Shown here piece after piece: positions 66-12,596 of a stretch of DNA of 12,596 bases. The position numbers were made by a program, and so were the translations under genes. The notes under the pieces were generated by a model, which was not told the DNA's origin, did no database searches, and saw nothing but the letters and a program-made list of their open reading frames with translations. Within the stretch, counting starts at the first letter, position 1, and each line of letters begins with the position of its first letter. Source of the stretch: Hyphomicrobiales bacterium (GTDB lineage Bacteria > Pseudomonadota > Alphaproteobacteria > Rhodobacterales > Rhodobacteraceae); contig PWLT01000212.1 of the NCBI GenBank assembly GCA_003558415.1, positions 1 to 12,596 on the forward strand, written 5' to 3'.

Positions 66-2342
66 ATGGCAGGAGACAGCGACCCGAACGCCCCCTGGAT
101 CACGCTGGCGGGGATGCTCCCGGTCGCGATCACGGCGGCGCTGTTTGTCTTCTTCCTGGGCTACGTTCCGCAGATCGCGGCGATGGAGACGGTGCGCTGG
201 GCCTGGCCGTGGATTCCCAGCCTCGACATCGAATTCAGCTTCTGGCTCGACGGGCTCAGCCTGACCTTCGCGCTGCTGATCACCGGCATCGGGACGCTGG
301 TGATGCTCTATGCGGCGAAGTATCTGCAGGGGCACCCGCATTTTCCACGCTTCGCGCTCTACCTGTTCCTGTTCATGCTCTCGATGCTGGGGCTGGTGCT
401 GGCCGACAACCTGATCGCGCTCTTCGTGTTCTGGGAGCTGACGACCTTCACCTCCTATCTGCTGATCGGCTATCTGCACACCGATCCGAAATCGCGCCGC
501 AACGCGTTGCAAGCGCTGCTGCTCACGGCCGCCGGCGGGCTGGCGATGCTGGCCGGTTTCATCCTGATCGGCATCACCCAGGGCACGTTCGAACTCTCCG
601 AGCTTAACGCCGCCGGGTCGATGGCTGCGCATGCGATGTATGTGCCGATGCTGGTGCTGGTGCTGATCGGCGCCTTTACCAAATCGGCGCAGGTGCCCTT
701 CCATTTCTGGCTGCCCAACGCCATGGCCGCACCGACGCCGGTTTCGGCCTATCTGCACTCGGCCACGATGGTCAAAGGCGGTGTCTACCTGCTGGCGCGG
801 ATGCATCCCTCGCTGTCGGGCAGCGATCTGTGGGTGTGGTCGCTGACGATTTTCGGGGGCGTGACGGCGGTTTACGCCTCGCTGATGGCGCTGCGCCAGA
901 CGGATCTCAAGCAGACACTGGCCTATACCACGCTGATGGCGCTGGGCACGCTGGTGATGTTTCTCGCCGGCGATACGGGCTATGCGATCACCGCGGCGAT
1001 GACCTTCCTGGTGGTGCATTCGCTCTACAAGGCGGGGCTCTTTCTCATGGTCGGCGTGATCGACCATGAAACCGGCACGCGCGAGGCGGGCGTGCTGGGC
1101 GGGCTGGCGCGCGCCATGCCGATCACGGCGATGGCCGCAGCGCTCGCGGCGCTGGCGATGGCGGGCATCCCCCCCTTCCTGGGCTTCATCGCCAAGGAGG
1201 TCGCCTATGCCGGGGTGCTCGAGCTGGGCCTGATGTGGTTCGCGCTGCCCATGGCGCTGGCGGCCTTCGCGCTGATGTTCGCGGTGGCGGGCATCGTGGC
1301 CTACAAACCCTTCTTCGGCCCGCAGGGCGATCTGCCGAAAGCACCCCTTGAAGGCCCCTGGGCGATGCTGGCGGGGCCGGTGATCCTGGGTGTTCTGGGG
1401 CTAAGCTTCGGCCTCATGCCGGGGCTTGCGGCGACGACGCTCATCGAACCTGCGGTCGCCGCGGTGATGGGCGAGGTGGATCGCGGCGGGCGCGTGCAGC
1501 TCTGGGCCGGGTTCAACCTGCCGCTGCTGCTCAGCGTGATCACCTTCGCACTTGGCGGCGTGCTCTACTGGAAGCATCAGGCGCTGCGCGAATGGCTTGC
1601 GCGCATCGAGGCACGCGGCCCCGATTTCGACGCGGGCTGGGACCGCCTGCTCGACTGGCTCATGGCGCTGGCCAAAGGGCAGACGCGCATCATCCAGACC
1701 GGATACCTGCGCCAGTACCTCTTCGCCACCTTCACGGTCCTCGCGGTCACCATCGGGCTGACCATCATGCTGCGCGGCGTGGCGATGCCCGGCGTTGCCT
1801 TCGGCGGTCTCTCGGTGCGCGAATGGGCAATCGCGGGCCTCGTGGTGGCCGGCACGGCGGTGGTGGTGCTGACCTCCTCGCGCATCGCGGCGATCGTGGG
1901 GCTCGGCGTCGTGGGGATCGCCGTGGCGCTGATCTTCATCGTCTATTCGGCGCCCGATGTCGCGATCACCCAGCTTCTCGTGGAGCTTCTGGTGGTGGTG
2001 CTCTTCGCGGTGGCCGCGCTCAACATGCCCCATCTCGACCCCGAGGGCCGGCAGCGCCACCGCCCCGCCGATGCGGTGCTCGCTGTGGCCGTGGGCGCGG
2101 CGACCACGGTGGTGCTCCTGATGGTGGTGGACACGCCCTTCGACCGCCGCCTGACCGACTTCTTCGAGGCGGCGAGCTGGCCCGAAGCCTTCGGGCGCAA
2201 CATCGTCAATGTCATTCTGGTTGACTTCCGCACGCTCGACACCTTCGGCGAGATCGCCGTGGTGATCGTCGCGGCGCTGGGCGCCTACGCGCTGCTCAAG
2301 GGGCATATGCGCCGCAAAGCGGACAAGAGGGACGACGCATGA
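66..2342 (+). CDS. mrpA: Mrp Na+(K+)/H+ antiporter subunit A
   Basis: This is the largest subunit of the multisubunit Mrp monovalent cation/proton antiporter of the inner membrane and is homologous to the NuoL proton-pumping subunit of complex I. The 758-residue protein is almost wholly hydrophobic. The antiporter core carries the expected buried charges: E124 in FWELTTF, K206 in FTKSAQVPFHFWLP, K237 in MVKGGVYLL, and H318/K322 in VHSLYKAGLF. The C-terminal third has the MbhD-like segment (about residues 580-650, with YSAPDVAITQLLVE) and the MbhE-like segment (about 690-745, with RTLDTFGE). The start at ATG 66 follows GAGGGA at 58-63, and an in-frame TGA at 57-59 excludes a longer frame. The protein begins directly with what looks like the family's second helix (residues 11-33), so the usual first helix seems missing. 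The stop overlaps the mrpB start as ATGA. Confidence 0.95.
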   Translation: MAGDSDPNAPWITLAGMLPVAITAALFVFFLGYVPQIAAMETVRWAWPWIPSLDIEFSFWLDGLSLTFALLITGIGTLVMLYAAKYLQGHPHFPRFALYLFLFMLSMLGLVLADNLIALFVFWELTTFTSYLLIGYLHTDPKSRRNALQALLLTAAGGLAMLAGFILIGITQGTFELSELNAAGSMAAHAMYVPMLVLVLIGAFTKSAQVPFHFWLPNAMAAPTPVSAYLHSATMVKGGVYLLARMHPSLSGSDLWVWSLTIFGGVTAVYASLMALRQTDLKQTLAYTTLMALGTLVMFLAGDTGYAITAAMTFLVVHSLYKAGLFLMVGVIDHETGTREAGVLGGLARAMPITAMAAALAALAMAGIPPFLGFIAKEVAYAGVLELGLMWFALPMALAAFALMFAVAGIVAYKPFFGPQGDLPKAPLEGPWAMLAGPVILGVLGLSFGLMPGLAATTLIEPAVAAVMGEVDRGGRVQLWAGFNLPLLLSVITFALGGVLYWKHQALREWLARIEARGPDFDAGWDRLLDWLMALAKGQTRIIQTGYLRQYLFATFTVLAVTIGLTIMLRGVAMPGVAFGGLSVREWAIAGLVVAGTAVVVLTSSRIAAIVGLGVVGIAVALIFIVYSAPDVAITQLLVELLVVVLFAVAALNMPHLDPEGRQRHRPADAVLAVAVGAATTVVLLMVVDTPFDRRLTDFFEAASWPEAFGRNIVNVILVDFRTLDTFGEIAVVIVAALGAYALLKGHMRRKADKRDDA

Positions 2343-2761
2343 ATTCGATCATCTTCTCGGCGGGCGCGCGGCTGCTCGTGGCGCTGCTGCTCGTCTTTTC
2401 GCTCTTCATGCTGCTGCGCGGGCACAATCTGCCCGGCGGCGGCTTCATCGGCGGGCTGATCGGGGCGGTGGGCTTCATCGTCTATTCGCTCGCCTGCGGC
2501 CCGGCCGAGGCCAAATCCGCGCTGCGCATCAGCCCCGAGGTGCTGGGTATGGTGGGGCTGGGCATCGCGCTGCTGGCGGGGCTGGCCTCGCTGCCCTTCG
2601 GCGATCCGCTCTTTACCGGACAGTGGTACTGGGTCGGCGGCGACAGCTACGAGACGGCCGCCTTCTCGATCAATTCGGTGCTGGTGTTCGACATCGGCGT
2701 CTATCTGGTGGTTCTGGGCGGCATCCTGTCGCTGGCCTTCGCCTTCGAGGAGGAGACCTGA
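2339..2761 (+). CDS. mrpB: Mrp antiporter subunit B
   Basis: This is the small membrane subunit of the Mrp complex (MnhB domain), 140 residues, the usual length for a stand-alone MrpB. It has about four membrane helices. The hallmark GHNLPGGGFIGGL lies at residues 28-40 between helices 1 and 2, and FDIGVYLVVLG at 117-127 marks the last helix. In many bacteria this domain is fused to the end of MrpA, but here it is a separate gene. Its ATG overlaps the mrpA TGA (2339-2342), which implies translational coupling. The GAGGAGGAGA near its 3' end also serves as the ribosome binding site for mrpC. Confidence 0.95.
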   Translation: MNSIIFSAGARLLVALLLVFSLFMLLRGHNLPGGGFIGGLIGAVGFIVYSLACGPAEAKSALRISPEVLGMVGLGIALLAGLASLPFGDPLFTGQWYWVGGDSYETAAFSINSVLVFDIGVYLVVLGGILSLAFAFEEET

Positions 2762-2762
2762 G

Positions 2763-3124
2763 ATGGAAAGCCTTACCGCATTGCTCATCGGTGTGCTGGT
2801 CGCGGCGTCGGTCTATCTGATGCTGGCGCGCAACTTCCTGCGCTTCCTCTTCGGGCTGATCCTGCTGTCGAACGCCGCCAATCTGGTGATCTTCGCCTCC
2901 GGGCGCATGACGATGGGCGCGCCCGCGCTGGTGCCCTATGGCGCAGACGCGCCGGTGGGCGTGGTCGGCAACGCGCTGCCGCAGGCGCTGGTGCTCACCG
3001 CAATCGTGATCGGCTTCGGCCTGCTGGCCTTCACTCTGGCGCTTGCCTTCGAGGCCTATCGCCGCCTGCGCACGCTCGACACCGACGACATGGATGACGC
3101 CGAACCGAAGGAGGAGCCCGCGAA

Positions 3125-3128
<4 letters not shown>
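2763..3128 (+). CDS. mrpC: Mrp antiporter subunit C (NuoK-like)
   Basis: This 121-residue protein has three predicted membrane helices (about residues 4-22, 27-46 and 73-97) and is homologous to NuoK of complex I. Family marks are LLSNAANLVIFASGR (34-48) and ALPQALVLTAIVIGFG (71-86). The C-terminal 20 residues are a charged cytoplasmic tail rich in Asp, Glu and Lys. The ATG lies one base after the mrpB stop and is preceded by a strong GGAGGAGA Shine-Dalgarno inside the mrpB end. The TGA overlaps the mrpD start as ATGA. Confidence 0.94.
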
Positions 3129-4620
<1,492 letters not shown>

Positions 4621-4624
<4 letters not shown>

Positions 4625-5100
4625 ATGTCCTCGTCTACAACCTGATCCTGGCCTTCTGCTGGGCGGCGATCACCGGCTCCTTCACGCTGGGGTCGCTGTT
4701 TACCGGGCTGGTGATGGGCTATTTCGCGCTGTGGCTGTCACAGCCGCTGATCGGCGTGGACAGCTTCTATTTCATCCGCGTCTTCCGGGTGATCCGGCTG
4801 GCACTGTATTTCCTGTGGGAGCTGCTTCTGTCCTCGCTGCGCGTGGCATGGGACGTGATCCGCCCCTTCCCTTCCAACAATCCCAAGATCATCGAGGTAC
4901 CGCTCGACGTCAAAAGCGATCTGGAAATCCTGCTCGTGACGAACCTGATCTCGCTCACGCCCGGTACGCTGAGTGTCGATGTCACGCCCGACCGCAAGAC
5001 GCTCTATGTCCACCACATGTTCGCCGACGACCCCGAGGCAGAGGTGGCCGCGCTCAAGGGGGGCATGGAGCGCATGGTGCTGGAGGTATTTCACAGATGA
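4621..5100 (+). CDS. mrpE: Mrp antiporter subunit E
   Basis: This 159-residue Mrp subunit has two or three N-terminal membrane helices (about residues 4-40 and 55-80) followed by a soluble C-terminal domain. The family signature NLISLTPGTLSVD lies at residues 108-120. MrpE is thought to support assembly and full activity of the complex rather than to form its main ion path. The ATG overlaps the mrpD TGA (4621-4624), and its own TGA overlaps the mrpF start. Confidence 0.94.
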
Positions 5101-5417
5101 GCCCGGCCGCGTTTCTCGACCTCGCCGTGCAGATCGGCTTCGTGATGGTGATGCTGGCGCTGGGCATCGCCATGATCCGCCTTGTCCGGGGGCCCAGCCT
5201 CGCCGACCGTGTGGTCGCGCTCGACATGATGAACATCACCATCATCGGCTTCTGCGCGCTCTATGCGGTGCTTGTGGAGGATCCCTCCTTCCTCGACGTG
5301 GCCATCGTGCTGGCGCTGGTGGGCTTTCTCGCCACCGTGGCGCTGGCGCGCTACGCCGAGCGGCGATTCATCCGTGACAAGGAAGGCTACGACACCGGGG
5401 AGTCAGAGGATGGCTGA
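5097..5417 (+). CDS. mrpF: Mrp antiporter subunit F
   Basis: This 106-residue protein has three predicted helices (about residues 8-29, 40-60 and 64-84). It shows the MrpF hallmark RGPSLADRVVALD at residues 31-43, including the conserved Asp (D37), followed by a charged tail. The start at ATG 5097 overlaps the mrpE stop and has GGAGG at 5082-5086. The end overlaps mrpG by 8 bases, so the two are likely translated in a coupled way. Confidence 0.94.
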   Translation: MSPAAFLDLAVQIGFVMVMLALGIAMIRLVRGPSLADRVVALDMMNITIIGFCALYAVLVEDPSFLDVAIVLALVGFLATVALARYAERRFIRDKEGYDTGESEDG

Positions 5418-5727
5418 AATCATCGCCGGCATTCTGGTCCTGGCAGGTGCGGGCTTCACCCTGATCGCCGCGATCGGCATCGTGCGCCTGCCCGATCTTC
5501 TCACGCGGATGCACGCCTCCACCAAGGCGGGCACGCTGGGCAGCGCGCTTCTGGTCGGGGCGTTGATCGCGGTGTTCTGGGAGACCACCGTGACCTCCAA
5601 GGCCATCGCGACGATCCTGTTTCTGCTTCTGACCGCGCCCATTGCCGCACACATGATCGGGCGCGCCTACGCCAAGACCGAGCGCGACAAGTACATCGCG
5701 CGCGACCGCAAGCAGCGCGAGGGCTGA
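5410..5727 (+). CDS. mrpG: Mrp antiporter subunit G
   Basis: This is the last subunit of the Mrp operon, 105 residues with about three helices and a charged, Arg/Lys-rich C-terminal tail. The signature RLPDLLTRMHASTKAGTLG (26-44) and the following TAPIAAHMIGRAYA (76-89) are typical of MrpG/PhaG. GGGGAG at 5397-5402 lies 7 bases before the ATG, inside mrpF. The gene ends 9 bp before the stop of the convergent trmB. Confidence 0.94.
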   Translation: MAEIIAGILVLAGAGFTLIAAIGIVRLPDLLTRMHASTKAGTLGSALLVGALIAVFWETTVTSKAIATILFLLLTAPIAAHMIGRAYAKTERDKYIARDRKQREG

Positions 5728-6583: not shown

Positions 6584-6632
6584 CGCAGCATCATTTCGCG
6601 GCGAGCGTGCCACACAGGAATTGGAGACAGAC

Positions 6633-7391
6633 ATGGCGGATCGGGATTTCACAGGCAAGACGGCAATCGTCACAGGTGCGGGTTCGGGTATCGGCGCGGC
6701 GATCGCGCGCGAGTTGGGCGCGCGCGGCGCCCATGTGATCGTAAGCGACCTCGACGTGGCCAACGCCGATCAGGTCGCCGGCGAAATCGTCACCGAAGGC
6801 GGCAAGGCCGACGCAGCGGTTGCCGATGTCAGCGACGCCATGGCGATGCAAAAACTCGTGCAGACCGCCGTGGACAAGGGCGGCGCGCTGCATCTGGCGG
6901 TCAACAATGCCGGAATCGGCGGGCCTTCCGAGAAGGTCGGCGACTACCCCACGGACGGGTGGCGCAAGGTGATCGACATCAATCTCAACGGCGTGTTCTA
7001 CGGCATGCGCCACCAGATCCCCGCGATGCTCGACGCCGGTGGCGGCGCCATCGTCAACATCGCATCGATTCTCGGTTCGGTGGGATTTCGCAATGCCTCG
7101 GCCTATGTCGCCGCGAAACACGGCGTGGTCGGGCTCACCAAGGCGGCGGCGCTGGAATACGCGCAGGAGGGAATCCGCGTGAACTCGGTCGGGCCGGGCT
7201 TCATCGAGACGCCGCTTCTGTCCAAGAATCTCGATCAGGATGCTATCGACGGGCTTTCGGCGCTGCATCCGGTGGGGCGCATCGGCACGCCCGAGGAGGT
7301 ATCGGCGCTGACCTGTTTTCTGCTCTCGGACCGGGCGAGCTTCATCACCGGCAGCTATCATCTGGTGGACGGAGCCTATACCACGCAATAG
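6633..7391 (+). CDS. SDR-family NAD(P)-dependent oxidoreductase
   Basis: This is a classical short-chain dehydrogenase/reductase of 252 residues, the usual length. The Rossmann glycine motif TGAGSGIG spans 14-21. D39 at the end of the second strand (VIVSDLD) favours NAD(H) over NADP(H). NNAG lies at 91-94, and the catalytic set N117, S145, Y158 and K162 (YVAAK) is complete. The PGF (188-190) and IETPLL segments are typical of the substrate loop. The substrate cannot be deduced; the protein resembles the broad 3-oxoacyl/sugar/alcohol dehydrogenase group. The frame is open further upstream, but ATG 6633 is preceded by GGAG at 6623-6626 and starts just before the first strand. It is the first gene of the operon with the cation ATPase (27-bp gap) and the ackA-pduL fusion, which suggests a role in redox balancing beside acetate formation, but this is inferred. 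Confidence 0.9.
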   Translation: MADRDFTGKTAIVTGAGSGIGAAIARELGARGAHVIVSDLDVANADQVAGEIVTEGGKADAAVADVSDAMAMQKLVQTAVDKGGALHLAVNNAGIGGPSEKVGDYPTDGWRKVIDINLNGVFYGMRHQIPAMLDAGGGAIVNIASILGSVGFRNASAYVAAKHGVVGLTKAAALEYAQEGIRVNSVGPGFIETPLLSKNLDQDAIDGLSALHPVGRIGTPEEVSALTCFLLSDRASFITGSYHLVDGAYTTQ

Positions 7392-7418
7392 GTACGTCTG
7401 TCGGAACGGGAGCGCTTG

Positions 7419-10163
7419 ATGGACAGTGTTGAACGCGGCTGGGCGGAACCGGCCGATACCGTGCTCAATACCCTCGAGTCCGGCAGCGACGGGCTGAGCA
7501 GCGAGGAAGCCGCGCGCCGCCTTGAGGAACATGGCCCCAACAGCCTGCCCAGTGTCGAGCGGCCCACGCTGATTGCGCGGCTGGCGCGGCAGTTCAACAA
7601 TCTGCTCATCCTCGTGCTGATCGCCGCGGCGGTGATCACCGCCCTGCTCGGTCACTGGGTGGACACAGCCGTGATCATGGCGGTGGTGATCATCAACGCG
7701 GTGATCGGCTTCGTCCAGGAAGGCCGCGCCGAGGCCGCGCTGGAGGCGCTGCGCGACATGCTCGCGCCCAAGGCCTCGGTCCTGCGCGACGGTGAGCGCC
7801 TCACGATCGCGGCGGACGAATTGGTGCCCGGTGACGTCGTCGTGCTGGAGGCCGGCGACAAGGTGCCCGCCGATCTGCGGCTGATCGATGTCTCCTCCAT
7901 GGCCGTTGAAGAGGCGATTCTGACCGGCGAATCCGTGCCGGTGGACAAGCACACCGACCCCGTCGATGCCGATGCCGATCTGGGCGACCGGGCGAGCATG
8001 GCCTTCAGCGGCACTCTGGTCGCAAAGGGCTCGGCCAGCGGTGTGGTGGTGGCGACCGGTGCACAGACCGAAATCGGCCGCGTCAGCGGCATGGTCGAAG
8101 GCGTCGAGCAGCTCACCACGCCCCTGATCCGCCAGATGGGCCAGTTCGCCAAGTATCTCACCGGGTTCATCCTCGTCGTCGCAAGCGCCATCCTGGCCTT
8201 CACCACGCTGGTGCGGGGCATGGAATTCGCCGAGGCATTCATGATCATCGTGGCGATCTTCGTCGCCTCGATCCCCGAGGGGCTACCGGCGGTTCTGACG
8301 GTTACGCTGGCCATCGGCGTGCAGACAATGGCGCGCCGCAACGCCATCATTCGCCGCCTGCCCGCGATCGAGACGCTGGGCGCGGTCTCGACCATCTGCT
8401 CGGACAAGACCGGCACGCTGACCCGCAACGAGATGATGGTGGCCACCGTCGTCACCGCCGAGGGGCTGCACGAGATTTCGGGCGAAGGTTACGCCCCCGA
8501 GGGCGATGTGACCCGCGACGGCGAGGCAGTAGAGACAGGGCCGGTGCTGGCGGCGCTGGGGCGCGTGGCGGGGCTGTGCAACACCGCCAGCCTGAAACGG
8601 CCGGACGGTGATCGACAATCCGACGAGAAGGACGCGGAACCGACCGAGGAGAATGGCGCCGCCAAGGACAAGGCATCGAGCGCCTGGCGGGTGGCGGGCG
8701 ACCCGATGGAGGGCGCGCTGCTCGCCCTCGCGGCCAAGCTGGAGCAGCCCTGGCGCAACCGCCCCCAGGCGAAACGCACCATCCCCTTCGACGCCAGCTA
8801 CCGCTACATGGCGGTTCTGCACGAGGATGAGGAGGAGGGCGGGCTGATCCTGCTCAAGGGCGCGCCCGAGGCGGTGCTTGAGCGGTGCGACAGCCAGATG
8901 GGCACCGACGGCCCCGAGACGCTGGACCGCGACTGGTGGTCCGAACAGGCCGAGGCGATTGCCGACGAGGGCCAGCGCGTCCTGGCGCTGGCGCACAAGC
9001 CGCACAAGGGCGACAGGCTGTCGCATGATGACGTGGAGAGCGGCCTCGTCCTGCTTGGCTTCGCCGGGCTGATGGACCCGCCGCGCCCCGAGGTGATCGA
9101 CGCGGTGGCCGACTGCCACAGCGCCGGGATCGACGTGAAGATGATCACCGGCGACCACAAGGGCACCGCCGCCGCGATCGGACGGCAGATCGGGCTGAAA
9201 CTCACCGATGAGGTCGTCACCGGCGCCGATATCGAGCGGATGAGCGATGACGAGCTGAGCAAGGCGGTGCTGCGCTCCGATGTCTTCGCGCGCACCAGCC
9301 CCGAGCACAAGCTACGCCTCGTCAAGGCATTGCAGGCCGATGGCAAGGTCGTGGCGATGACCGGCGACGGGGTGAACGATGCCCCCGCGCTCAAGCGCGC
9401 CGATGCCGGGATCGCCATGGGCATCAAGGGCTCGGAAGCCGCGCGCGAGGCCTCGGAGCTGGTGCTGGCCGATGACAATTTCGCCTCCATCGCCGAGGCG
9501 GTGCGACAGGGGCGCACGGTCTATGGCAACCTCAAGAAGGTCATCACATTCCTGCTGCCGGTGAATGGCGGTGAAAGCCTCAGCCTGGTGATCGCGGTGA
9601 TGTTCGGGCTGATGCTGCCGATCACGCCGTTGCAGGTGCTGTGGGTGAACATGGTGTCTTCGGTGGCGCTGGCCATGAGCCTGGCCTTCGAGCCACCCGA
9701 GCGCGAGGTGATGAAACGTCCGCCGCGCCGGGCGGATGCGCCGATCCTGTCGCGCTTTATCCTGTGGCGGGTGTTTCTGGTGTCGCTGCTGTTCTCGGCC
9801 GGCATCTTCGGGCAGTTCATCTATCAGCAGAGCGCCGGCGCCTCGGTCGAGATGGCGCGCACCATGGCATTGAACACGCTGGTGGCGATGGAGGTGTTCT
9901 ATCTCTTCTCGGTGCGCTACCGGCTGGGTGCCTCCTTCACGCTGGGGGGGATCAAGGGCACGCCGGCGGTGCTGATCGCGATCGCGGTCGTGCTGGTTCT
10001 GCAGGCGGTCTTCACCTACGCGCCACCGATGCAAATGCTGTTCGAGACGGTCGCGCTTTCGCCCTGGCAACTGGCGCAATGCGCATTGGCGGGGCTGATC
10101 CTGCTGGTGGTGCTCGATATCGACAAGCGCGCGGCCATGATCTGGAAGGGGATGCGAGCATGA
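7419..10163 (+). CDS. P2-type cation-transporting ATPase
   Basis: This is a full-length P-type ATPase of 914 residues in the inner membrane, of the Ca2+/Na+-pump-like P2 group. Domains run in order: N-terminal cation-ATPase domain (about 5-75), M1-M2, actuator with TGES (169-172), M3-M4 with PEGLPA (286-291), phosphorylation site DKTGT (D329), nucleotide domain with GDPMEGALL (427-435) and KGAPE (480-484), hinge TGDGVNDAP (648-656), and M5-M10. M4 E287, M5 N716/E719 and M6 N744 match cation ligands of SERCA, but the M6 Asp position is Ser (S748), so the transported ion is uncertain. A charged, low-complexity insert (about 393-420) lies in the nucleotide domain. ATG 7419 has GGAG 6 bases upstream; an adjacent TTG at 7416 is less well spaced. 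The stop overlaps the next start as ATGA. Confidence 0.93.
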   Translation: MDSVERGWAEPADTVLNTLESGSDGLSSEEAARRLEEHGPNSLPSVERPTLIARLARQFNNLLILVLIAAAVITALLGHWVDTAVIMAVVIINAVIGFVQEGRAEAALEALRDMLAPKASVLRDGERLTIAADELVPGDVVVLEAGDKVPADLRLIDVSSMAVEEAILTGESVPVDKHTDPVDADADLGDRASMAFSGTLVAKGSASGVVVATGAQTEIGRVSGMVEGVEQLTTPLIRQMGQFAKYLTGFILVVASAILAFTTLVRGMEFAEAFMIIVAIFVASIPEGLPAVLTVTLAIGVQTMARRNAIIRRLPAIETLGAVSTICSDKTGTLTRNEMMVATVVTAEGLHEISGEGYAPEGDVTRDGEAVETGPVLAALGRVAGLCNTASLKRPDGDRQSDEKDAEPTEENGAAKDKASSAWRVAGDPMEGALLALAAKLEQPWRNRPQAKRTIPFDASYRYMAVLHEDEEEGGLILLKGAPEAVLERCDSQMGTDGPETLDRDWWSEQAEAIADEGQRVLALAHKPHKGDRLSHDDVESGLVLLGFAGLMDPPRPEVIDAVADCHSAGIDVKMITGDHKGTAAAIGRQIGLKLTDEVVTGADIERMSDDELSKAVLRSDVFARTSPEHKLRLVKALQADGKVVAMTGDGVNDAPALKRADAGIAMGIKGSEAAREASELVLADDNFASIAEAVRQGRTVYGNLKKVITFLLPVNGGESLSLVIAVMFGLMLPITPLQVLWVNMVSSVALAMSLAFEPPEREVMKRPPRRADAPILSRFILWRVFLVSLLFSAGIFGQFIYQQSAGASVEMARTMALNTLVAMEVFYLFSVRYRLGASFTLGGIKGTPAVLIAIAVVLVLQAVFTYAPPMQMLFETVALSPWQLAQCALAGLILLVVLDIDKRAAMIWKGMRA

Positions 10164-11950
10164 GGGTTCTGGTCTTCAACGCCGGCAGTTCAAGCCTGAA
10201 ATTCGCGGTCTTCAACACCGGCGACGGCGACCGGCAGCTCTTCAAGGGCAGCTTCGAGCGGTTCGGCGACGAGGGCTGCGATTTCAGCTTCCGCACCCCG
10301 GAGGAGGAGAATTCGGGCCGCGCCCCCTACCCCGACATCGCCTCGGCCATCGAGGCCGTGCCCAGGGCACTGGAGACCCACGGGGTGGAGGTGATCGATG
10401 CCGTCGGCCACCGCATCGTGCATGGCGGCGAGAAGCACGCCACCGCGACCCGGCTGGATGACGATCTGGTCGAGGCGCTGCGCAAGCTCACCCCGCTTGC
10501 CCCCCTGCACAACCCCGCCAATCTCGCCGCCGTCGATCTGGCGCGCTCGATCTGGCCGGATCTGGCACAATTCGCGGTCTTCGACACCGCCTTTCACCTG
10601 AGCGCGCCGCCGCGCGCCACCACCTATGCCGTGCCGAAGCGATGGCGCGAGGCGGGGCTGCGCCGCTACGGCTTTCACGGCACCTCGCACAAATACGTCG
10701 CCCACCGCGCGGCACAGGAAATCGGCACGGCGCTGGAGGATCTTCGCATCATCTCGGTGCACCTAGGCAACGGTGCGAGCGCCTGCGCGATCAATCGCGG
10801 GCGCAGCATGGACACCTCGATGGGCATGACGCCGCTGGAGGGGCTGGTGATGGGCACGCGCTCGGGCGATGTGGATCCGGGCGCCTTCGGCTATCTCAAC
10901 CGGCGGCTGGGGCTGGGCATCGAGGAGATCGAGGAGGCGCTGCACCGCGACAGTGGCCTCAAGGGGCTCACCGGCGTCTCGGACATGCGCGATGTGGAAC
11001 ACCGCGCCGCGCAAGGCGACGCGGAGGCGCAGCTTGCCATCAACATCTACGCCTACCGCGCGCGCAAGTATATCGGCGCCTATGCGGCGGCGATGGGCGG
11101 GCTGGATGCGGTCGTGTTCACCGGCGGCATCGGCGAGAATTCCCCCTCCATGCGCCGGCGCATCTGCGACGGGCTGGAATTCATGGGCCTGCAACTGGAT
11201 TACGACCGCAATCATGCGGTCGCTCTCGACAACCGCGCGGCACCACAGATTCAGGCCTATGAATCGCGTGTGCGCGTGATCGTGACGGAAACCGCCGAAC
11301 AGCTGATGATCGCGCGCGAGGTGGCCGAGGCGCTGGAGCGCCCCGCCCTGACCCCGCGCCCCCTCCCCGTCGCCGTCTCGGCGCGCCATGTTCATCTCTC
11401 CCGCGAGGCGGTGGAGGCCCTTTTTGGCGCGGGTTACGAACTGACCCCGGCCAAGGATCTGCGCCAGCCGGGCAATTTCTGCGCCAAGGAGCGCGTCACC
11501 GTCGAAGGCCCGCGCGGGCGGCTCGAAAACGTCGCGATTCTGGGGCCCGAGCGCAACCGCACCCAGATCGAGGTGTCGCGCACCGACAGTTTTGCGCTGG
11601 GCATCGACGCGCCGGTGCGCGAAAGCGGCAAGCTCGACGGCACGCCGAGGGTGACGCTGATCGGCCCCGCCGGGCGGTTCGAGACCGACGGGCTGATCGT
11701 CGCCGCCCGACACATCCACATCAACCCCGAGGACGCGCAGGCCATGGGGCTGAGCGACGGGCAGGTGATCGAGGTGCATGTCGGCGAGAACGCGCGCGGG
11801 CTGATCTTTTCACACACGTTGGTGCGGGTGCAGGACAACGCCTTCACCGAAATGCATATCGACACCGACGAGGCCAACGCCGCCGGAATCCGGGTGGAGG
11901 GTGAAGGCGCGCTCGTCGAAGGCCACAGCGCGCGCGTGAGGCAAGGCTGA
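10160..11950 (+). CDS. Acetate kinase-PduL phosphotransacylase fusion protein
   Basis: This 596-residue protein joins two complete enzymes. Residues 1-392 are acetate kinase: nucleotide/phosphate motif FNAGSSSLKF (6-15), GHRIVHGGE (83-91), catalytic D142 in FDTAFH, H173 in RYGFHGTSH, HLGNGAS (201-207), R234 in MGTRSGDVDPG, and TGGIGENS (321-328). After a linker of about ten residues rich in Pro, residues 402-594 are a PduL-type phosphate acyltransferase: metal-binding HVH (410-412), E444 in NFCAKERV, GPERNRTQIE (462-471), second HIH (518-520), and H566 in MHIDTDEANAA. PduL would turn acetyl- or propionyl-CoA plus phosphate into the acyl phosphate and CoA; AckA would then make acetate or propionate plus ATP, or the reverse. 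There is no encapsulation peptide and there are no shell-protein genes nearby, so it is presumably cytosolic. GGAAGGGGA at 10144-10152 precedes the ATG, which overlaps the ATPase stop. No plausible internal start exists at the domain junction. Confidence 0.94.
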   Translation: MRVLVFNAGSSSLKFAVFNTGDGDRQLFKGSFERFGDEGCDFSFRTPEEENSGRAPYPDIASAIEAVPRALETHGVEVIDAVGHRIVHGGEKHATATRLDDDLVEALRKLTPLAPLHNPANLAAVDLARSIWPDLAQFAVFDTAFHLSAPPRATTYAVPKRWREAGLRRYGFHGTSHKYVAHRAAQEIGTALEDLRIISVHLGNGASACAINRGRSMDTSMGMTPLEGLVMGTRSGDVDPGAFGYLNRRLGLGIEEIEEALHRDSGLKGLTGVSDMRDVEHRAAQGDAEAQLAINIYAYRARKYIGAYAAAMGGLDAVVFTGGIGENSPSMRRRICDGLEFMGLQLDYDRNHAVALDNRAAPQIQAYESRVRVIVTETAEQLMIAREVAEALERPALTPRPLPVAVSARHVHLSREAVEALFGAGYELTPAKDLRQPGNFCAKERVTVEGPRGRLENVAILGPERNRTQIEVSRTDSFALGIDAPVRESGKLDGTPRVTLIGPAGRFETDGLIVAARHIHINPEDAQAMGLSDGQVIEVHVGENARGLIFSHTLVRVQDNAFTEMHIDTDEANAAGIRVEGEGALVEGHSARVRQG

Positions 11951-11979
11951 GCGCCCTTCACCGGCTGCGCATCGGGCGC
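11951..11979 (+). terminator. Possible weak hairpin after the ackA-pduL gene
   Basis: GCGCCC (11951-11956), directly after the stop codon, is complementary to GGGCGC (11974-11979), with a 17-base interval between them. There is no following T-run, so if it ends transcription it is not a standard intrinsic terminator. Such short GC repeats also arise by chance in sequence of this composition. Confidence 0.2.
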
Positions 11980-12025
11980 GGGGGACGGTGGCAACTGCGT
12001 CACGGGCTGAAAAGAATTTCGCACT

Positions 12026-12058
12026 ACGGGCCGAACCATGACCACAGGTTCTGGCCGT
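12026..12058. promoter_or_regulatory. 33-bp interrupted dyad upstream of the ABC gene
   Basis: The left arm ACGGGCCGAACC (12026-12037) and the right arm GGTTCTGGCCGT (12047-12058) are symmetric at 9 of 12 positions around a 9-base spacer. In RNA they could pair over about 11 bp with one bulged base on each side. No T-run follows on the plus strand, so a terminator is unlikely. The centre lies about 30 bp, close to three helical turns, upstream of the centre of the FNR-like box. It may be an operator for a dimeric regulator or an RNA hairpin; which one is not known. Confidence 0.4.
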
Positions 12059-12065
12059 CAAAAAA

Positions 12066-12079
12066 ATGATCTGTATCAA
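12066..12079. promoter_or_regulatory. FNR/FixK-type binding box
   Basis: ATGAT-CTGT-ATCAA matches the consensus TTGAT-N4-ATCAA at 9 of 10 specified bases, the first base being the only mismatch. FNR, FnrL and FixK proteins of alphaproteobacteria bind such sites under low oxygen. The centre (12072.5) is only about 40 bp before the start codon at 12113. A class II activator arrangement (centre near -41.5) would therefore put the transcript start almost at the ATG, so repression or a near-leaderless mRNA are the options. No good -10 hexamer was seen downstream. Confidence 0.55.
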
Positions 12080-12112
12080 TGCAAACCACGTCGTCCGACC
12101 TAGGAACGCGTC

Positions 12113-12596
12113 ATGGAACAGCGAAACCCGGTCTTCAGAACCGAAGGGATCACCAAGGTCTATGGCGAGGGCCATACGGCCGTGCACGCGCTGCGCGGCG
12201 TCGATCTGGAGCTCTATGAGGGCGAGATGGTGGTGATGCTGGGCGCCTCGGGCTCGGGCAAGTCCACGCTGCTCAACATCCTCGGCGCGCTCGACACCCC
12301 CACCGACGGACGGGTGTTCTTCCACGACAGGGAGCTCACGCGGCTGTCGGACAAGGCACTCACCGCCTTTCGCCGCGACCATGTGGGATTCGTGTTCCAA
12401 TTCTACAATCTGGTGCCCAGCCTGACGGCGCGCGAGAACGTGGCGCTGGTCACCGAGATCGCGCGCGAGCCCATGCGCCCCGAGGAGGCGCTGGAGCGCG
12501 CCGGTCTGCCCGACCGGATGGACCACTTCCCCGCCGAACTCTCGGGCGGCGAGCAACAGCGCGTGGCCATCGCCCGCGCCATCGCCAAGCGCCCCG
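12113..12596 (+). CDS. ABC transporter ATP-binding protein (MacB/LolD-like), 3' end cut by window
   Basis: The first 161 codons of an ABC ATPase are present; the frame is open to the window end. Walker A is GASGSGKST (44-52), the Q-loop lies in [17 protein letters not shown] (94-110), and the signature LSGGEQQR spans 143-150. The Walker B region lies beyond the window. The [14 protein letters not shown] form and the length of the N-terminal part are typical of the MacB/LolD/FtsE group, which power lipoprotein, macrolide or peptide export with a FtsX/MacB-type permease. That permease would be expected just downstream. AGGAA at 12102-12106 lies 6 bases before ATG 12113. The gene follows a 162-bp gap after ackA-pduL that contains the FNR-like box and a dyad, so it likely begins a separate transcription unit. 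Confidence 0.9.

Follow-up and report, generated by a model that had tools for sequence, protein, structure and literature searches.

An AckA-PduL fusion in a Rhodobacteraceae genome: a probable one-gene Pta-AckA route outside microcompartments

In this study, a window of 12,596 nucleotides (the whole of the stretch analysed, contig PWLT01000212.1) was examined, and acetate kinase (AckA) and the phosphotransacylase PduL were confirmed to be encoded in one polypeptide: positions 10160-11950 (+ strand) form a single open frame of 596 amino acids, with no internal stop. Judging from its sequence and from a structure model, the product is very probably a cytosolic, non-microcompartment bifunctional enzyme, which would hold the whole Pta-AckA route in one gene, with PduL replacing Pta. 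The PduL half would interconvert acetyl-CoA and phosphate with acetyl phosphate and CoA, standing in for an enzyme of the Pta family (PF01515), and the AckA half would interconvert acetyl phosphate and ADP with acetate and ATP. With both half-reactions in one protein, a single gene would thus supply the entire route, giving ATP at the substrate level or, in the reverse direction, activating acetate. We infer the two activities, the acetyl rather than propionyl nature of the substrate, and the direction of flux.

Both enzymes are complete, as the earlier sequence-only reading had proposed. The AckA half (residues 1-393, 10160..11338, +) matches the Pfam profile Acetate_kinase PF00871 over residues 3-386 (profile positions 2-392 of 392, 436.5 bits), and the PduL half (residues 402-577, 11363..11890, +) matches PTAC PF06130 over residues 403-577 (positions 1-175 of 176, 240.4 bits), both far above the cut-off. 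The NCBIfam models for ackA (TIGR00016, 420.2 for a cut-off of 293.4) and for phosphate propanoyltransferase (NF011652, 243.9 for a cut-off of 209) were also passed. A Shine-Dalgarno-like stretch, GGAAGGGG (10144..10151, +), predicted from the sequence, lies 5' of the start codon, within the upstream gene. The C-terminal tail (residues 578-596 and the stop codon, 11891..11950, +) is poorly conserved (0.37), and its last 8 residues have a pLDDT below 50.

A structure prediction from the single sequence, with a mean pLDDT of 36.5, was replaced by an AlphaFold model made with 39 fused sequences (mean pLDDT 86.6, pTM 0.70). Foldseek aligned this model to acetate kinase structures over about 400 columns (E 9e-43), and superposed it on PduL 5cuo with an rmsd of 1.1 over 187 columns; no PDB chain spanning both halves was among the matches listed by the sequence search. 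In the model, the final AckA helix spans residues 380-393 and the first PduL strand residues 402-407, so that the linker would be about 8 residues long (approximately residues 394-401, 11339..11362, +). Since both families are dimeric in solved structures, according to the parts of the literature consulted, active sites on different chains of the fusion might face one another.

Active-site residues are likewise intact by alignment. R85, R234 and E380 correspond to Arg91, Arg241 and Glu384 of Methanosarcina thermophila AckA, whose mutation abolishes all or nearly all activity in the P. gingivalis or M. thermophila enzymes (PMC6461089). H410, H412, E471, H518, H520 and H566 correspond to His48, His50, Glu109, His157, His159 and His204 of R. 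palustris PduL, which are its zinc ligands, and R465 and S489 to Arg103, which contacts phosphate, and Ser127 of the same enzyme (PMC4784909). Conservation was measured over 82 rows, namely the window, 80 loci from named genomes and one duplicate record (L002, the same record as L023); these 80 loci are the best-scoring of 576, and are therefore uninformative on the overall frequency of AckA fusion. R85, R234, E380, H410, H412, R465, E471 and H520 are conserved in 82/82 rows, H518 in 81 (one row has P) and H566 in 81, the exception being a gap in the broken locus L080; in the alignment of 39 rows, S489 does not vary. The claim that the catalytic and metal-binding residues are preserved thus holds for the three essential AckA residues and for all six PduL zinc ligands, and a degenerate domain was rejected.

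Such an architecture is not new, having been in print since 2016 (PMC4784909). Erbilgin et al. (2016) reported PduL domains within proteins annotated as acetate kinases and devoid of encapsulation peptides, for which they suggested channelling and proposed a replacement of Pta (PMC4784909). The window protein likewise carries both domains on a single chain and lacks an encapsulation peptide, and no difference from their Ack-PduL proteins was found in the passage concerned; we infer its identity with that family, as the passage names neither protein nor organism. To this we add that the fusion is spread patchily over several phyla, that close relatives have most likely lost their PduL half, and that the fusion and a separate Pta nearly exclude one another. 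No biochemical assay of an AckA-PduL fusion was found in open-licence PubMed Central (subscription papers may contain one), and an open-literature search on the hypoxia and phosphoketolase context returned nothing on the fusion. In the portions consulted, PMC4207490, PMC10327494 and PMC10823632 deal with separate genes.

Microcompartment PduLs, which function with PduW/AckA, have in common with the fusion the PF06130 fold and the zinc ligands (as in 5cuo), but they differ from it on two points. First, the fusion has no N-terminal encapsulation peptide, PduL starting at most 10 residues after the end of AckA. Second, with PF00936 as the one shell profile searched, neither the window's genome (75% complete) nor the complete fused genome G003 yielded a shell gene, and PF00936 was absent from 10 of 11 fused genomes. 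The sequence-only reading was therefore right on both counts, and a microcompartment PduL was rejected. Genome G732 carries PF00936 shell-protein genes at C1:2390561-2391698, more than 500 kb from its fusion.

Compared with the separate Pta-AckA pathway, the overall reaction is expected to be identical, but one polypeptide would take the place of two enzymes. PduL is unrelated to Pta and employs two zinc ions (PMC4784909). A separate non-malic PF01515 gene was found in 21/23 Rhodobacteraceae-type genomes with a stand-alone AckA, versus 1/11 with the fusion (Fisher p 5e-6, which overstates the contrast and is not a probability, as the AckA tree holds just 1-2 phylogenetically independent pairs, with which an independent-pair test has no power). 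In the stand-alone genomes first tested, the proportion was 20/20, and it became 21/23 upon adding three less complete genomes; the two negatives are G025 (79% complete) and G026 (85% complete). This count omits G023, whose AckA hit is 59 residues long and which yielded malic enzyme alone, as well as G035, which has a weak AckA-like hit and an adjoining Pta-like gene; G034, in which AckA and PduL are apart, was placed in neither group. The 11 fused genomes are G000, G003, G425, G606, G618, G708, G428, G565, G743, G732 and G380, the last from another family. PF01515 matches were classified by alignment for the 21 positives and for G743, G708, G025, G026, G000 and G003, and in the other fused genomes malic enzyme was deduced from frames of at least 751 residues.

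The 21 positives comprise 14 MaoC-Pta fusions, 5 shorter relatives of the Pta half of MaoC-Pta, and 2 Ptas of another type (G005 and G031). In 15/20 stand-alone genomes of the family, ackA has a Pta-family gene no more than about 100 bases away. MaoC-Pta (PRK08190), found beside ackA in family relatives, is also a phosphotransacetylase next to or with AckA, but it has the Pta fold, is a separate gene, and gives way to the PduL half where the fusion is present. Within the window's genus, G001, G002 and G004 have AckA without PduL, together with a MaoC-Pta enzyme, and no MaoC-Pta enzyme was found in the complete fused genome G003. Both PF01515 matches of the window's own genome are malic enzymes, and this genome, being 75% complete, may conceal a Pta. 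For the malic enzyme MaeB of the EUT1 locus, the PTA-like domain is reported not to function (PMC4207490). G034, with its separate PduL gene and stand-alone AckA, has no Pta beyond malic enzyme, and G743 is the single genome in which a MaoC-Pta gene (C115:6686-7321) accompanies the fusion. As a control, a non-malic Pta was found in 4 of 9 AckA-less relatives (G007, G013, G018 and G033), so that Pta occurs without AckA. From these gene contents, the PduL half most likely replaces a separate Pta, and the same-genus pairs, G003 and G000 with the PduL half versus G001, G002 and G004 without it, make this replacement testable.

The fusion is rare and patchy. Counting the window's own genome each time, PF06130 exceeded its cut-off in 2/385 genomes of the class, 10/394 of the family and 3/299 of the phylum. 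In 9 of the 10 family genomes, the frame that carries it is long enough to encode the fusion; the tenth, G034, has a separate PduL gene of 199 residues. This gene (L146, 3960-4559, +) belongs to the fused clade, is away from AckA and is followed by an integrase-like gene. Named fusion loci belong, from their record titles, to six phyla, Pseudomonadota, Bacteroidota, Myxococcota, Bdellovibrionota, Acidobacteriota and Planctomycetota, the last two being represented by one metagenome bin each; Alkalilacustris brevis is a member of the window's genus. One Myxococcales bin has two fusion copies about 20 kb apart (L082 and L093, contig JAEUJZ010000127.1). Of the 413 plasmid records that gave a match, 4 span 80% or more of the query, and plasmid-borne copies were found in Sinorhizobium, Paracoccus and Polaromonas. 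On the Polaromonas plasmid pPNAP02, fabI and a DUF3141 gene flank the fusion, and a heavy-metal ATPase and ppk2 precede it; the Paracoccus copy has a phasin gene nearby, and that of S. meliloti pSmeRU11d adjoins a cation ATPase and is surrounded by transposases. On this last, conjugative plasmid, the fusion gene is broken within its PduL half and annotated as two genes (L152, 12001-13798).

The history of the two halves was then read from gene trees. A PduL tree of 110 rows, built by a quick method without the duplicate L002 of L023, groups the fused rows with a number of stand-alone ones on a branch whose SH-aLRT is only 80, away from Paenibacillus-like, Syntrophotalea-like and microcompartment PduLs; the fused or stand-alone label requires 11 changes. 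Some of these stand-alone rows do not represent genuine separate genes: P0123, P0125, P0161 and P0230 start within the end of AckA, and P0133 has the same PduL letters as the fused L041. P0135, P0145, P0159, P0187 and L146 are apparently genuine separate PduL genes. An AckA tree of 101 rows, from which the cut rows L061 and L063 and the duplicate L002 were left out, places the stand-alone AckAs of G001, G002 and G004 in a starred set of 43 rows, 40 of them fused; this set in turn nests in a larger starred one, with 48 fused rows out of 51. From this nesting, the PduL half was most likely lost in these three same-genus genomes, perhaps twice; a careful 24-row tree places G001 and G002 beside, not within, the fused rows.

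Why the halves should be fused can be explained in several ways. It is rather probable, in our view, that fusion mainly fixes a 1:1 expression and moves the pathway as a single gene, without kinetic coupling. The patchy spread (the few PF06130 genomes at each rank), the mixing of orders and phyla in the gene trees, and the copies carried by plasmids in three genera all argue for this explanation, which alone does not account for the halves staying fused, and not merely adjacent.

Acetyl phosphate is the intermediate between AckA and PduL and also a signal, which makes the fusion a natural system in which to ask whether acetate flux can be separated from acetyl phosphate signalling. Here, the earlier interpretation stood in part: an intact bifunctional AckA-PduL that belongs to no microcompartment and uses PduL instead of Pta was retained, but the direct passage of acetyl phosphate between the two sites, and its shielding from response regulators, found no support in the computed evidence. 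Conservation is lowest in the linker (mean majority fraction 0.32, versus 0.66 in AckA and 0.70 in PduL), and the distance along the chain between two anchor residues ranges from 17 to 36 residues. A linker so variable in sequence and length does not suggest a fixed tunnel. We thus regard as unlikely a site-to-site channelling of acetyl phosphate, away from solvent and response regulators: the fused arrangement is kept across six phyla and channelling has been proposed in print for Ack-PduL proteins (PMC4784909), but the linker varies, and same-genus relatives and G034 do without the fusion, having separate halves or another Pta. Slightly more doubtful still is a broader scheme, in which an acetate module of one origin would move across the six phyla, be exchanged with Pta, and hand acetyl phosphate over within the protein, bypassing the free pool. 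If true, this handover would uncouple flux from the free acetyl phosphate pool that phosphorylates regulators and acetylates proteins.

The neighbouring genes, a cation P-type ATPase here and a phosphoketolase in other lineages, suggest that the fusion is used when energy is scarce, or as an acetyl phosphate sink. Directly upstream of the fusion is a cation-transporting P-type ATPase gene (7416..10163, +; E1-E2_ATPase, Cation_ATPase_N and Cation_ATPase_C), whose stop overlaps the fusion start by 4 bases (ATGA), and whose best NCBIfam model is a PMR1-type Ca ATPase, with a score below the cut-off of that model. It is preceded by an SDR-family oxidoreductase gene (6627..7391, +; PF13561), probably the first gene of the operon. 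A scan for promoters and terminators over 9900-12200 gave 0, where 0.3 and 1.1 were expected. In the other loci, neighbours were identified by tblastn with named genes. A P-type ATPase gene is directly upstream and co-directional in 8/81 distinct loci, window included, and the order SDR, ATPase, fusion is also that of L023, L049, L057 and L060. In L004 and L005, the ATPase gene still overlaps ackA, and a gene for an AbrB-like membrane protein then follows.

That the fusion mainly shares acetyl phosphate made elsewhere, for instance by a phosphoketolase, between acetyl-CoA and ATP seems improbable to us: a phosphoketolase gene is present in the flanks (of differing lengths) of 6/81 distinct loci (L028, L030, L048, L055, L056 and L064), but none was found in the flanks of the other 75 or in the window's genome (75% complete). 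Just as improbable is a propionyl or other acyl group as natural substrate. PduL is the phosphotransacylase of the propanediol route, with a named activity on propionyl groups, and the NCBIfam names read acetate/propionate family kinase and phosphate propanoyltransferase; against this, propanediol and propionate genes are absent from the window, and the AckA half is below the propionate-kinase cut-offs of NCBIfam.

The two-domain architecture also recurs in other genomes. Both Pfam domains are present in all of the best 120 of at least 7998 protein matches, a protein from another source (P0002) is 98% identical to the fusion, and 79/82 rows give, counted from the match start, an unbroken frame of 575 residues or more, the three short ones being contig ends (L061 and L063) and a frame break inside PduL (L080). 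That a missed stop and start conceal two separate proteins is hardly credible, and a sequencing error at about 11336-11365, which the sequence-only reading had named as a danger, is refuted: although the S. meliloti pSmeRU11d copy is annotated as two genes, its break is inside PduL and not in the linker, no in-frame start codon was found at residues 389-417, and independent assemblies carry the same continuous frame, so that an assembly artefact was rejected. Two separate products would then require cleavage of the chain after its translation.

The rest of the window holds genes of other kinds. Genes for an Mrp-type Na+/H+ antiporter occupy 66-5727 (+), with subunits A and D identified by NCBIfam and the remaining frames being, by size and order, putative B, C, E, F and G. 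A putative methyltransferase gene (PF02390, 5737-6456, -), which we take to be of the tRNA guanine-N7 type, is on the strand opposite to its neighbours. Downstream of the fusion, 12114-12596 (+) is the start of a putative ABC transporter ATPase gene, read from the sequence and cut by the contig end.
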